From assembly GCF_004210375.1 (NCBI RefSeq), contig NC_134830.1:70472326-70536325 (forward strand): DNA of 64,000 nt. Reading direction: 5' to 3'. This DNA is from Tachypleus tridentatus (lineage: Eukaryota; Arthropoda; Merostomata; Xiphosura; Limulidae). Position 1 is the first letter of the stretch, and each line of letters opens with the position of its first letter. The notes under the pieces are model-generated. The model saw only the letters and a program-made list of their open reading frames with translations. It was not told where the DNA came from and searched no databases. Of this stretch, positions 15,413-63,395 are shown one piece after another. The translations under genes and the position numbers were made by a program.

Positions 15413-15516
15413 CACACGTAAATTTAACAAATAACTTTACAAATTGTGTTGAATAACATATCAAGATAGAAAGTGTTGCGTAAAACTCACGGTTTTAACT
15501 TCTTAACATTGGATGT

Positions 15517-16062
15517 TATGGAGAAAGCTTCTTGGTGAACAATGGGTTATAGACAAAGCTTAATGGCAAACAATGTGTTATGGACAAAGCTGAATGATAA
15601 GCAATGAGTTATGGACAAAGCTTAATGCCAAACAATGTGTTATGGACAAAGCTGAATGATGAACAATGGATTATAGATAAAGCTTAATGGTAAACAATGG
15701 GTTATGGGCAAAGCTGAATGATGAACAATGGATTATGGATAAAGCTGAATAATGTAAAATGGGATATGGACAAAGCTGAATGATGAACAATGGATTATGG
15801 ATAAAGCCGAATAATGTAAAATGGGATATGGACAAAGCTGAATGATGAACAATAGATTATGGATAAAGCTGAATAATGTGAAATGGGATATGGACAAAGC
15901 TTAATGGTAAACAACGAGTTATAGACAAAGTTTAATGGCAAATAATATGTTATGGACAAAGTTGAATGGCAAATAATATGTTATGGACAAAGTTGAATAA
16001 TGAACAATGGGATGTGGATAAAGTTTAATGGTAAACAATGGGTTATGGACAAAGCTCAATAA
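15517..16062. repeat. Minisatellite, about 30-bp unit, first segment
   Basis: About 18 imperfect repeats of a unit near AACAATGGGTTATGGACAAA GCTTAATGGT. Units vary as GCTTAATGGTAA, GCTGAATGATGA or GCTGAATAATGT, and some form alternating higher-order pairs (15721-15890). A SINE-A copy interrupts the array at 16066. Confidence 0.9.
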
Positions 16063-16065
16063 TGA

Positions 16066-25075: not shown

Positions 25076-25440
25076 GTGTTTTACACATTCCACCATCAGA
25101 TGATTAGTTCACTATTTTAATGTTTCACACATACCACCATAAGATCAATAGTTCACTATTTTAAAGTTTCACACATACCACCATCAGATGAATAGTTCAC
25201 TATTTTAATGTTTCACACATATCACCATCAGGTGAATAGTTCACAATTTGTATGTTTCACACATACCACCATCAGGTGAATAGTTCACTATTTGTATGTT
25301 TCAGACATACCACCATCAGGTGATTAGTTCACTATTTTAATGTTTCACACGTACCATCATCAGATAATTAGTTTGTTATTATTATGTTTCGCACGTATCA
25401 TCATCAAATGAATACTTCTTTATTTTTATGTTTCACTTCG
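25076..25440. repeat. Tandem repeat, about 44-bp unit, about 8 copies
   Basis: The unit is close to TTTCACACATACCACCATCA GGTGAATAGTTCACTATTTG TATG. Inner copies are similar; the last two (from about 25360) are strongly decayed, the usual pattern of array-edge divergence. Confidence 0.95.
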
Positions 25441-42556: not shown

Positions 42557-43428
42557 TCATTGTGGATGATCAATTTCTGGGTGAATTACAGTCAGCGGTA
42601 TGCATTGAAATCTAGTTTCAGAACTCTCCTCATGATATCTGTTTATACGTGATAGCCGGTGATCGAATGACTCTCTACTCTCCAGTGTTGCGGTTTGTGA
42701 CCTGTGAATATTGAATAATCGCTTTCGATTTGTGTTCTTGCCGGTATTTTGTAGATAAGAAAACTTTTCCCTTAAGGCAGCCTTAAAGCGAGGGTGACTC
42801 AAACCATATAAGAATGGGTCTAGAACTGAGGCTGTTTTACAGAACAATGCTGGCACCACAGAGATAGTAGGTGTGAGTAACTGTTGGTTAAAAGAAATAC
42901 CCAACAGTGCAACTACAGCGTAAGGTGTCCATGATATCATCCAAAAGGATATTAAAGCAAACACTAATTTTGCTAATTTAATTTCAGTTTTTTTATGCTT
43001 TTGAATATTGAAACGATTGAAATTAATTTCCCTTTCCTGATTCCGATAAATAAATTGTTTTTTACACACAATAAAAATTATACCAGAGTAGCTCAAACAG
43101 ATTATTACTACTGGAAAGCACCAAGCCGCGATAAAAAACACTAAAACAAAGATCCGGCTTTTCAAATCACTTGCTATATAATCAAAGCTGCAGCCACTTA
43201 AATAGCCCTCGGGAACGTATTGGTTAATGCGGAATACAGGCATCACACTGAACGTGAGTGAATATATCCATATGCAAATAGCAATGACTGTTCCTCGAAG
43301 TCGGGTCATCTTCCATCTGGGGTCTAGAAGACGAGAGATTGAATAATACCGTTCTCCAGCCATCGCGGCAATAGTCATAATGGCTGTTGTTCCTGTTAAA
43401 CCACCAATAAACCCATACAGCTGACAAC
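42557..43428 (-). CDS. Opsin exon 3 (TM3 to C-terminus), rhabdomeric type
   Basis: Light-sensing GPCR; family role is retinal-dependent activation of Gq in photoreceptor membranes. This exon encodes residues 137-425. Visible: C137 at the start of TM3 (disulfide partner C215), FIGGLTGTTAIMT as in arthropod r-opsins, ERY (161-163) in place of DRY, YVPEGYLSGCSFDY in loop 2 with E209 at the usual r-opsin counterion site, KTEIKLAKL before TM6, SWTPYAVVALLG in TM6, retinal-binding Lys K333 in ALFCKTAS, DPFLY for NPxxY and HPR where many r-opsins have HPK. The 3' splice site (CTCTTAG before 43428) and phase 1 join give Gly-Cys. Stop TGA at 42557. The family is clear; the subgroup (UV/short-wavelength-like or a non-visual chelicerate group) is not. 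Confidence 0.95.
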
Positions 43429-43496
43429 CTAAGAGAAAAAAGATAAGACATAGAATATTAGGCAACATAAAATAATAAAAGTTCCATTTATATGTT

Positions 43497-43752
43497 GGCC
43501 CTGCATGGCCAGGTGATTAAGGCGCTCGACTCGTAATCCGAGGGTCGCAGGTCCGAATCCCTGTCACACCAAACATGCTCACCCTTTCAGCTGTGGTGGC
43601 ATTACAATGCACTTCGATGCTAAAAGAGTAGCCACAGAGTTGGCGGTGGGTGATGATGACTAGTCGCCTTCTCTCTACTCTTAGACTGCTAAATTACGGA
43701 CGGCTAGTGCAGGTAGCCCTCGTATAGCTTTGCGTGAAATTAAAAAACAAAT
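43497..43752 (+). repeat. SINE-A copy next to the exon 3 acceptor
   Basis: Head GGCCCTGCATGGCCAGGTGA, CTCGACTCGTAATCCGAGGG, then body with a small deletion (CAATGCACTTCGATGC) and tail GCAGGTAGCCCTCGTATAGC. It is antisense to the opsin gene and leaves only about 68 bp of intron before exon 3. Confidence 0.9.
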
Positions 43753-44825: not shown

Positions 44826-44981
44826 ATGTATCTCAGAAATACTGCTGTGGGTATTAATACGTTTACTGATAAGCAGAGAACAACGTTTCGACCTGAAGAT
44901 AACCTAAAAAGGTCGAAACGTTGTTCTCTGCTTTATTTTGGTAAAAGTATTAATACCCATACCAGCCATCCTGAGATACAT
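44826..44981. repeat. Fold-back element with a 24-bp perfect inner stem
   Basis: Inner arms 44871-44894 (AAGCAGAGAACAACGTTTCG ACCT) and 44910-44933 are exact reverse complements around a 15-nt loop. The outer arms also pair imperfectly (TGTATCTCAG... with ...CTGAGATACA), giving a stem of about 70 bp. The sequence CAAGTGGGTTTCTCG follows on the right, as it does at the hairpin at 53288-53407. Confidence 0.9.
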
Positions 44982-45431
44982 TTTTATTTCAAGTGGGTTT
45001 CTCGTCATCAAGAATAACTAGTAAATGATTTAATACGAAATTTGTTAGATTTTTTCTCAATCTTTTCTGGCTACATAGAAAAAATATTCTAGGTTCCAGC
45101 TGATAAAACAGGTTCAAATTAATTAAATTGTAAACGGTTAACCTGATAAATCAATGTCTACCTGTTTCTAAAAAAACAGCAAGCTGAAACTGCTCATGTT
45201 TTAACGAAATTTGTGAAAATGACTTGATGAGTTTCGGGTTAATACCGTGGAGTGGTTAACATCAACATTTAATGAAGGGTCACTTCTATTACACTGTGTA
45301 ACAAATTTTTTTCTTATTTCTGGGCAAAAAATATTATTTCCCAATTGTCTAAAGTGAATGGAAAAAACCATTTTTTCTCTTCAAACTTTGTTTTTGTGAC
45401 CCGGGTAATAAAAGTTTCAAATTTACTCATT

Positions 45432-45553
45432 TTCCAGAACATTCGAGATAGATTCAGTGCTGAGTAGCTGATAGAGAATTTTCTTGAACTTTCTAGAATG
45501 TTGTAGAACTTACGAGAATTTTCAAGAACCGTTTATAATTTTCTAGACTTTTC
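45432..45553 (+). promoter_or_regulatory. Heat-shock-element array upstream of the transposon gene
   Basis: From 45481 to 45528 the 5-bp heat-shock modules alternate in perfect register: TTC, GAA, TTC, GAA, TTG, GAA, TAC, GAA, TTC, GAA at 45481, 45486, 45491, 45496, 45501, 45506, 45511, 45516, 45521 and 45526; eight of ten are exact. A further TTC, GAC, TTC at 45541, 45546 and 45551 stays in phase. A separate TTCnnGAAnnTTC lies at 45432-45444. Heat shock factor trimers bind such inverted nTTCnnGAAn arrays (established). A TA-rich stretch at about 45560-45578 could act as TATA box, some 80-95 bp before the ATG at 45656. Confidence 0.8.
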
Positions 45554-45655
45554 CATAGTAATATATATATATATATACAAGGGCTCACCACTCACCACTT
45601 CAGTTTAGTTCTAGTTGCCTAAGTGAACACATAGACCGACCTGATTTTATCAGAG

Positions 45656-46736
45656 ATGGCGTCAAGAAGCTATAAGCATTCTCCAGACGCATTCTGCTAT
45701 GTATGTGGCCAATTTATCAAGAAAAGAGCGAAAAAGTACTTTGTGACAGCATCTGCTAAAATGTGTGAAGCCTACCAGGCATATTTCGGCATGCTTGTCG
45801 GGGATCAAGACAAACCTTGGGCACCTCATTTTACCTTCGACCACCGCTTAGAAACTCTAGAAAGTAAGACGGACAATTTTTACTTGCTTGAATAGTATGA
45901 TTTTATATCATATAAGTTTTATACCTTTTAAATTTTAAATATATTTCGTTGCACCTCAAGTAGGAATACAACAGTGTCAAGACCTTGTTAGAAGGCTTGA
46001 AGCATGATGAGTATGGCTGGGAGGTTATCGGAGACTTCAAAATGGTGGCATTCCTGATGGGTCTCCAAGGAGGCTTTACCAAGTTTCCCTGTTATCTTTA
46101 CCTTTAGGACAGCAGAGACACTGCCCACTATGGACCGAGTTCTCTGTGGGGAGGCACAATGTCAAATGTGAGCCACTAGTGGACCTCCCGATGGTATTGT
46201 TCCCACCATTGCACATAAAATTGAGTCTTATGAAACAATTTGTCACAACTTTTGATAAGGAATCTGCAGCCTTCAAGTACCTTCGAGACTTCTTCCCTAT
46301 GTTGTCTGAGGCAAAGGTCAAAGATGGTGTCTTCGTTGGACCACAAATAAAAAAGACCCTGGAGTGCACAGAATTCCCCAAGAAGCTCAGTGGGAAGGAG
46401 AAAAAAGGAAAAAAAATGTGCAACTTTGTTGCAGTGGTTCGGGGCTTCTTGGGTAATCGCAAGGCCGAAAATTATGTGAAATTGGTTGAGGCTCTGGTGA
46501 AGAACTACGGCAAAATGGGCTGCAGGATGTCCCTGAAAGTCCACATCCTTGACGCTCATCTTGATAAGTTCAAGGGGAATATGAGAGCATACTCAGAGAA
46601 GCAAGACGAGCACTTCCACCATGATATACTGGATTTTGAACGCCGCTACCAAGGAACATATAATGAAACTACGATGGGATACTATACTTGGGGGCTGATA
46701 CGTGAAAGTGATTTACATTATAGTCGCAAATCTTGA
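45656..46736 (+). pseudogene. Broken gene of a multicopy transposon-type family
   Basis: Frame 1 from ATG 45656 reads MASRSYKHSPDAFCYVCGQF... with a C-x2-C zinc-finger start, then FGMLVGDQDKPWAPHFTF. It is lost after about 45870. A second piece from about 45965 reads EYNSVKTLLEGLKHDEYGWE, GDFKMVAFLMGLQGGFTKFP CYLYL, then a stop. A third, open from about 46125 to the TGA at 46734, reads FSVGRHNVKCEPLVDLPMVL FPPLHIKLSLMKQF, NFVAVVRGFLGNRKAENYVK, MSLKVHILDAHLDKFKGNMR and ERRYQGTYN. From memory this matches a large family of uncharacterised, highly repeated arthropod and cnidarian proteins. Part of the middle is deleted and there is at least one stop and one frameshift. GDFK and PPLHIKLGLM-type motifs may be parts of a DDE nuclease, which is inference. 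Confidence 0.8.
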
Positions 46737-47629
46737 AAAACTACTCACTTCTAAACATTTTTGTATAACTTTAGTATAAACACATGTAAATCTTGATTCA
46801 TATATTGTTTTATTAAGACCTTATGTAAATAAAAATGTGCAAATTTGCTCTTTTTTACATAGAAAATAGGTTAATTTCTAAATTTCATTATATAGGTCTC
46901 AAAAGCAAAGTTTGAAGGGAATAATGTCCATTTTCTGTACTTTTACAACATAAGCAATTAAGAAATAACACATACTATCCAAGAACCAAATTTGTGTTAC
47001 ATAGTGTTATTTACAAATGCACAATGTTTCTCTCGAATAGAGATTATCGTGACATTTTTATGCAGTGTTAAGATTATTAATTATTTTGTGAAATAATTGC
47101 CGAGCTAAATGGTGTGTTATTAATATTCATTTCAAGTGTTTGGTTTATCCATTGTCAAATATCAGACTGAAACACCTTGAATATCGATCGATTCAAGGGG
47201 AATTCACAATCACGATTATACATTTTAATCATTTCAAATAAAATGAAACTAAAATCAGGGTTTGTTAGTATTTTAAATTATAACAAGGTTAAATTAAAGT
47301 TAGGTAGGATATTTTCGGCCTATTTTACTTTTGTACTGAAAGTACACTTGTATTGTTTCAAGAACTATGCGTATTTTAGTATTACCATTAATAAGATAAA
47401 TACCGAGACAACATGCGTGGTGCAGCTAGAATGTGGATCAATAAAATATTTTAAGTAACTTTCCTCAGTCTAAGCTAATAATCTTACCATATACCATTTA
47501 AAGTGTTATTATCTATTCATCAAAACAGAATGTTCTGCTCACCAAACGTATTTGTTTATTTCTCGAGAAGCAAGTTGTTAATCGCTTTAAAACCTCTCAC
47601 TTCGCGTATTTTTCCTTACTGTAGATTAG

Positions 47630-47892
47630 TTGTTTGTTTTTGAAATTCGCGCAAAGGCTATATGTGCTAGCCGTCCCGAATTTAGCAGTCTGAGACCAGA
47701 GGGAAGGCAGTTAGTGATCACCACCCACCGCCAACACTTAGACTACTCTTTTACTAACGAATAGTGGGATTGACCGTTACATTATAACGCTCCCACTGCT
47801 GAAAGGCCGAACATGTTTTGGTGTGATGGGAATTCGAACACGCGACCCGCGCATTACGAATGGAGCGCCTTAACCACTTGACCATATTGGAC
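47630..47892 (-). repeat. SINE-A copy
   Basis: Minus-strand copy with (TTTG)-type end at 47630, body and head (GGAATTCGAACACGCGACCC; CTTAACCACTTGACCATATTGG). The tail is shortened (GCAAAGGCTATATGTGCTAG). Confidence 0.85.
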
Positions 47893-49648: not shown

Positions 49649-49980
49649 TTGATTGTTTTGAATTTCACGCAAAACTACACTAGGGATATCTGCGCTAGCC
49701 GTCCCTGATTTAGTAGTGTAAAACTAGAGGGAAGAAAATTAGTCATCACCACTCACCATAAACTCTTTGGCTACTTTTTACCAGCGAATAGTGGGATTGA
49801 TTGTAGCATTATAAGCTCCTCTAGGCTGTAACTGTGAGTATGTTTGGTGTGACAAGGATTCGAACCTGCGACTCTCAGAATACGGATACAACAGATATCT
49901 CTTTGGTAGCGCCCCCTAGTCGCACAGCGGTATGTCTGCGGACTTACATCGCTTGTGTAGCTTTGTGCTTATCTCCAAAC
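49649..49980. repeat. SINE A/B composite, second copy
   Basis: Minus-strand SINE-A (49649 to about 49855), then the variant head GATTCGAACCTGCGACTCTC AGAATACGG, then CTAGTCGCACAGCGGTATGT, a plus-strand SINE-B with an internal deletion, ending TGTGTAGCTTTGTGCTTA. It shares about 90 bp across the junction with 48182-48270. Confidence 0.85.
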
Positions 49981-62928: not shown

Positions 62929-63395
62929 CTACATCTTATACAATGTTACGGTATGACTAGAGTTGAAAGGACATATTTTACTTTCTTCCATTTATGTTTT
63001 AGGGTACCAGTCTTTTTTCTCTAACATCTTTTACAATGTTACGGTATGACTAGAGTTGAAAGGACATATTTTACTTTCTTCCATTTATGTTTTAGGGCAC
63101 CAGTCTTTTTTCTCTAACATCTTTTACAATGTTACGGTATGACTAGAGTTGAAAGGACATATTTTACTTTCTTCCATTTATGTTTTAGGGTACCAGTCTT
63201 TTTTCTCTAACATCTTTTACAATGTTACGGTATGACTAGAGTTGAAAGGACATATTTTACTTTCTTCCATTTATGTTTTAGGGTACCAGTCTTTTTTCTC
63301 TAACATCTTTTATAATGTTACGGTATAACTAGAGTTGAAAGGACATATTTTACTCTTTTCAATTCATGTTTTAGGGCACCAGTGTTCTTCCTTTA
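62929..63395. repeat. Tandem repeat, 93-bp unit, five copies
   Basis: The marker word CAATGTTACGGTATGACTAG starts at 62941, 63034, 63127 and 63220, with a mutated fifth at 63313, each exactly 93 bp apart. Copies 2 to 4 are almost identical; the last copy has most changes. No open frame runs through the array. Confidence 0.97.

Follow-up and report, generated by a model that had tools for sequence, protein, structure and literature searches.

We identified, in a 64,000-nucleotide stretch of Tachypleus tridentatus DNA (NCBI RefSeq assembly GCF_004210375.1, contig NC_134830.1; hereafter the window, whose positions are used below), a transposon copy in which a long phased array of heat-shock-element (HSE) modules stands directly upstream of a TATA box and the start of a gene. 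This array probably serves (probability about 0.77) as the upstream activating part of a transposase promoter driven by heat-shock factor (HSF), in a family of inverted-repeat DNA transposons with thousands of copies in the genome. A second transposon family, which encodes a piggyBac transposase, carries arrays of the same kind.

The window copy is arranged in the order 5′ terminal inverted repeat (TIR) with an HSE trimer, main array, TATA, TCAGTT and ATG. Its features are as follows.

45289-45291, unstranded: left target-site duplication TTA, flanking CACTGTGTAACA
45292-47006, plus strand: whole transposon copy of 1,715 bp with termini CACTGTGTAACA...TGTTACATAGTG, delimited by the homology boundary over eight copies
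45292-45434, plus strand: 5′ TIR, long and imperfect, with 76% complementarity to the 3′ arm over the inner 63 nt (arm pair 45372-45434 / 46862-46924)
45432-45444, unstranded: HSE trimer TTC-GAA-TTC (TTCCAGAACATTC), situated where the 5′ TIR ends inwardly and in a different register from the main array
45476-45528, unstranded: main HSE array of 53 bp, 9 of 11 alternating GAA/TTC modules exact in a 5-bp register
45529-45553, unstranded: in-register but degenerate extension of the array, reading GTT, TAA, TTC (45541), GAC and TTC (45551)
45562-45577, plus strand: TATA box region with the sequence (TA)8
45600-45605, plus strand: initiator-like sequence TCAGTT, resembling the arthropod Inr
45656-45895, plus strand: start of the transposon gene, beginning with ATG (MASRSYKHSPDAFCYVCGQF...) and open to 45892; relatives start similarly
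45946/45947, plus strand: internal deletion junction, with about 770 bp missing relative to the longer copy L027
45990-46736, plus strand: remaining 3′ coding part, split over two frames, with no Pfam match
46862-47006, minus strand: 3′ TIR, without an HSE array
47007-47009, unstranded: right target-site duplication TTA, identical to the left TTA

From 45476 the main array reads GAA TTC GAA TTC GAA TTG GAA TAC GAA TTC GAA. Its first five modules (45476-45498) are exact in succession, where an HSE is defined by at least three alternating nGAAn units at 5-bp steps. The first-pass annotation of this DNA had described ten modules in exact register over 48 bp, which comes close to the 9 of 11 over 53 bp that we count. 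It had also begun the array at 45432, where modules do exist and form the separate out-of-phase trimer, and had extended it in phase to 45553, where the TTC modules at 45541 and 45551 are exact and GTT, TAA and GAC are degenerate. The modules of this continuation are intact in many other copies. Its description of a TA-rich box followed by an ATG agrees with the (TA)8 and the ATG at 45656.

The same annotation had judged chance occurrence unlikely, and simulation bears this out. Across 300 Markov-1 simulations of a 64-kb window, the highest-scoring 11-module frame contained three (57 windows), four (232 windows) or five (11 windows) exact modules and never more than five, as against nine observed. 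The five-module pattern GAANNTTCNNGAANNTTCNNGAA, allowing up to two mismatches, matches the window eight times, all inside the array; the mean for shuffled sequences is 0.42, and none of 100 shuffles reaches eight. Scanning the window for HSE arrays of score 3 or above returned none besides the main array and the 45432 trimer. A chance array is ruled out by the Markov-1 result together with the retention of the array across family copies, and a minisatellite specific to the window is ruled out by its presence in sampled family copies elsewhere. STAT/BCL6-type sites have a TTC-GAA spacing of 3, and are ruled out because the spacing here is 2.

We searched 2.17 Gb of genome for other members of the family (family 1) and identified at least 5,355 5′ ends with a 39-bp anchor outside the array and up to three mismatches; the reversed control gave 0. 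Ends were compared at 25 loci, and both matched in eight distinct copies (L048 and L049 are duplicates, counted once). The termini are CACTATGTAACA/TGTTACATAGTG, that is, CACTA or CACTG, and the 3-bp duplication is mostly TWA: the flanks of the eight copies are TTA or TAA, with one TCA, and are the same on both sides in five and different at the middle base in three. Family 1 is a terminal-inverted-repeat DNA transposon, with TIRs, a short target-site duplication and many dispersed copies. Helitrons lack TIRs and target-site duplications and move by a rolling-circle mechanism; membership of that group is ruled out by the TIRs and the 3-bp duplication.

The CACTA/CMC superfamily has CACTA/G termini and a 2-3 bp duplication, and the ends and duplication of family 1 resemble it. 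Pfam returned no families for the two window protein pieces or the read-through piece, and none or one sub-threshold match for pieces from longer copies. Since the protein has no convincing Pfam match, we assign family 1 to no superfamily despite its CACTA-like termini. A PDB sequence search with the transposon protein gave seven weak, unrelated matches (E 0.41 or worse), and its single-sequence AlphaFold2 model (pLDDT 36.7) was discarded. Viral and prokaryotic contigs, each scanned once with the 196-aa open reading frame, yielded no relatives, and a tblastn search of phages likewise found none.

The first-pass annotation had made its proposal depend on the array being a feature of the family, and this held: 44 of 60 sampled copies have an array of score 4 or above, compared with 2 of 5,000 null sequences simulated from the dinucleotides of the promoters themselves. 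The 60 copies (20 apiece from C1, C2 and C3, taken in the order listed) were chosen regardless of array among 100 listed exact anchor matches; they include some near-duplicate loci, and two C2 places already sampled through their arrays were skipped. The other 16 are without a strong main array, which several have lost by internal deletion. At one locus (L072, G000:C1:58554990-58555330) the array, as judged by eye, joins the element's 3′-end sequence directly. This locus is apparently a gene-less derivative that amounts to a portable HSE array.

The position of the array relative to the TATA box is also shared among copies. Of the same 60, 15 have no landmark GAA (a landmark free of TATA) and 12 lack a TATA in the next 60 bp; the other 33 copies have both, and in 28 of these the first TATA of the TA repeat lies 16 bp after the landmark. 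An array-to-TATA count of 59/69 is not independent, because the landmark used there itself contains the TATA start. The distance from TATA to initiator is variable, at 29-34 bp in 35 of 64 copies. In each of eight copies scanned at both ends (the window copy and L002-L008, of which L003 and L005 are near-identical duplicates), arrays lie solely at the 5′ end beside the TATA, with none at the 3′ end.

A closely similar layout is present in host heat-shock genes. We identified a tandem cluster of inducible-type hsp70 genes (C8:132.8-133.8 Mb) in which all six promoters contain TTCGAGAAACTTCGAGAA, its last GAA standing 16 bp ahead of TATAAATA; being tandem copies, they are not independent instances. 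They also bear an HSE trimer about 117 bp upstream. A single trimer is present in two of six other hsp70-family upstream regions, and an array of score 3 is absent from the remaining four. The hsp70 promoters and the transposon have in common phased HSEs and a last GAA 16 bp before the TATA, whereas hsp70 has 4 + 3 exact modules and is not mobile and the window transposon has nine or more. The HSF DNA-binding domain was detected above the cut-off at five places in the genome. The genome also encodes coagulogen, a protein of horseshoe crabs: two of its exons each agree with PDB entry 1aoc, from Tachypleus tridentatus, at 48 of 51 aligned residues, with the mismatches at exon edges, which points to a horseshoe crab and probably to Tachypleus.

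This layout is consistent with a stress-responsive switch. Once activated by heat or by another form of proteotoxic stress, HSF would bind as trimers to the phased GAA/TTC modules and would recruit the transcription machinery to the TATA 16 bp downstream, so that transcription would start close to the TCAGTT initiator. Production of transposase mRNA would then be confined mainly to periods of stress, and stress-coupled mobilisation could follow.

It is unlikely, though worth weighing, that the HSF site is instead used mainly in the germ line or early embryo by a developmental HSF, producing transposase where copies are heritable. Heritable copies do require germ-line or embryo activity, and the discussion of the Caenorhabditis study of Garrigues et al., 2019 (PMC6927752) mentions that HSF has a developmental role; the geometry of the array, however, is like that of an inducible-type hsp70 promoter.

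We identified a second HSE-array family that encodes a piggyBac transposase (Pfam accession PF13843, DDE_Tnp_1_7, E 1.8e-59, 202 bits, L045:1743-2879). In the three copies examined, TTAA is found at both ends at the alignment boundaries (TTAAC[AC]C at L046:722 and G[GT]GTTAA at L046:3017-3023). By its domain and its TTAA ends this family is a member of piggyBac. A 44-bp anchor at the gene start, with up to three mismatches, identified 187 copies, and 99 of the 100 listed are exact. The piggyBac copies are mostly 93-97% identical, compared with 80-88% for most of the better family 1 copies, and the piggyBac family is therefore younger. The last GAA lies 17 bp from the TATA in 11 of 13 piggyBac promoters and 19 bp from it in the other two.

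Family 1 and piggyBac are unrelated; the module syntax is common to both, and the spacers differ between the two arrays. The occurrence of one type of switch in two unrelated families suggests that both may have come to follow the host stress response. We know of no HSE array upstream of the transposase among the described features of piggyBac elements, and the titles and abstract openings covered by our literature search contained no report of HSE arrays in piggyBac or horseshoe-crab transposons.

These comparisons also bear on whether the transposase itself binds the repeats as subterminal sites that merely resemble HSEs, which we consider improbable. En/Spm-type elements have short repeats near their ends that are bound by TNPA, and both the tandem palindromic 10-bp units near one end of the element and the 45432 trimer abutting the inner TIR edge would suit such a role. 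Binding sites of this type are, however, difficult to reconcile with a 3′ end that is free of arrays in 8/8 copies, with identical module syntax in the unrelated piggyBac family, with a TATA spacing that matches host hsp70, and with GAAnnTTCnn at 5-bp steps preceded by A, which is the syntax of HSF sites.

Most strong HSE arrays sampled in this genome are carried by transposons. Perfect five-module arrays have 1,897 genome matches against 12 for the reversed control (158-fold), and perfect seven-module arrays have 183 against 0, with long arrays counted more than once in both cases. With the arrays masked, all 34 distinct seven-module sites examined belong to family 1 (21 sites) or piggyBac (13 sites). 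These comprise 23 sites that account for the first 30 matches listed, and 11 sites picked from 100 listed for differing from the common piggyBac sequence; some of the family 1 sites are local duplicates (C2 8.7 Mb, C2 55.7 Mb, C5). Among five-module sites, a systematic sample from one contig (every fifth of the first 61 C1 sites, L074 and L075 among them) assigned 12 of 13 to family 1 and one, L135, to neither family; the first 61 also include piggyBac-sequence sites that the every-fifth sample missed. Nine further five-module sites were chosen as atypical or clustered, of which six belong to family 1 and three (L144, L146, L147) to neither, L146 matching a reference only in a flanking repeat.

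The suggestion that such an element could spread heat-shock elements is thus upheld by the 34/34 seven-module sites: copying of family 1 and piggyBac has spread HSE arrays genome-wide. Because five-module arrays are in such excess and most of those sampled are transposon-borne, HSF target maps of this animal must deal with them. The unassigned site L135 (G000:C1:31393800-31394320) has a perfect five-module HSE (GAACTTTCTTGAACGTTCTAGAA) and is possibly a host heat-shock promoter.

The array varies in length by regular steps. Its span ranges from 30 to 120 bp; 40 of 52 distinct segments fit a whole number of 10-bp units, the rest being off mostly by 1-3 bp. These segments derive from 88 loci (20 fetched for their arrays, three of those piggyBac), of which 56 have both landmarks and reduce to 52 distinct segments; adding 20 loci brings the total to 65 distinct segments, of which 48 keep the phase. 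The 10-bp unit in the 48 in-phase segments is GAAnnTTCnA, and an A precedes GAA in 359 of their 422 units. HSF is known to prefer AGAAN.

Over four length classes, substitutions number 149/1,674 in core bases, 143/1,044 in spacers and 189/1,836 in the 5′ flank, the core rate being below that of the spacers and slightly below that of the flank. In the 90-bp class, core substitutions equal those of the spacer and exceed those of the flank, and subfamilies are mixed; core conservation is therefore weak evidence of selection, and with subfamilies pooled selection on core bases is weakly indicated. The 10-bp length steps can be explained by slippage without selection. It is nonetheless highly improbable that the array is a neutral tandem repeat hitch-hiking in a successful element without promoter function. 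Slippage would account for the length steps and the core is only weakly conserved above the spacers, but the array occurs in two unrelated families, directly adjoins a TATA and initiator at narrow spacing and shows the 158-fold match excess over the reversed pattern.

The reading of the array as an HSF-driven promoter may be extended, tentatively and with more doubt than conviction, to the genome as a whole. Two unrelated cut-and-paste superfamilies would independently have gained hsp70-like HSF promoters, and heat on the spawning beach would trigger both transposases together. Their copies, including gene-less ones that bear arrays, would be the source of nearly all strong HSE arrays, forming a reservoir that could wire host genes into the heat-shock response.

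Several known systems are comparable. ONSEN and other plant LTR retrotransposons have heat-shock factor sites in their own promoter and show stress-coupled transcription. The horseshoe-crab families are alike in having putative heat-shock factor sites in the element's own promoter; the plant elements differ in being retrotransposons, with few HSE modules in the LTR and no TIR transposase. Human Alu repeats reportedly contain HSF sites (PMC3334603), and they too are repeats that spread such sites in an animal genome, but they are SINEs without an HSF-driven gene of their own.

The closest likeness is with Caenorhabditis, in which 61.4% of C. elegans HSEs lie in Helitrons (Garrigues et al., 2019; PMC6927752). 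That study proposes that HSEs began in a Helitron promoter and then spread HSF sites, and describes no increased HSE-Helitron correlation in the other bilaterians examined there. In both animals DNA transposons carry most genomic HSEs, as judged in the horseshoe crab from the perfect arrays sampled. The horseshoe-crab elements differ in comprising two TIR families, one of them piggyBac, with a phased array directly upstream of a TATA and gene; function was shown for the Helitrons in PMC6927752 and is predicted for the horseshoe-crab arrays. HSEs are also described in Nematostella promoters in another report (PMC13104882). The principle of HSF sites in transposons is thus known from Caenorhabditis Helitrons, and its use by two unrelated cut-and-paste transposons of one animal appears to be new. 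What is new here concerns the element classes, the hsp70-like layout beside the gene, the animal and the repeated occurrence. If the promoters are heat-inducible, a strategy documented for Helitrons of nematodes and retrotransposons of plants would also be used by cut-and-paste transposons, in two unrelated superfamilies of one animal, and stress-coupled transposition in an intertidal animal would become directly testable.

The first-pass annotation had the array driving the transposon gene of the window copy. The array does occupy a promoter position inside an animal DNA transposon, but the gene here is broken and about 770 bp shorter than in the longer copy. The frame is open to 45892 and continues in two other frames. 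The gap relative to L027 is shared by L002 and L003, and the window copy therefore looks like a member of a deletion-derivative subfamily rather than the product of a private loss. At L039, which represents the same site as L027, the extra stretch holds an open frame (L039:3495-3950). The window copy does not look able to make transposase and, given its broken frame and gap, its array 'drives' merely a relic; it could act as an HSF-responsive enhancer or promoter.

We also identified other features in the window. A 303-aa open frame on the minus strand (42557-43468), which we take to be opsin-like, matches rhodopsin-family 7tm_1 (Pfam accession PF00001, E 4.2e-27). Some 2 kb upstream of this exon is the HSE transposon, whose array could act on that gene. 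The transposon is preceded, 300 bp upstream, by an imperfect, MITE-like hairpin (44826-44981) with perfect 24-nt inner arms (AAGCAGAGAACAACGTTTCGACCT). Copies of a dispersed repeat that contains a GGATTCGAACC box and probably represents a tRNA-derived SINE occur at 43505-43746 (minus strand), 47656-47885 (plus strand) and 49684-49887 (plus strand), and also at L146. Tandem repeats include a satellite-like 93-bp repeat (62931-63383; 4.9 copies, 97% matches) and two minisatellites, one with a 31-bp unit in 17.8 copies and a higher-order period of 124 bp (15515-16065) and one with a 44-bp unit in 8.2 copies (25077-25436).
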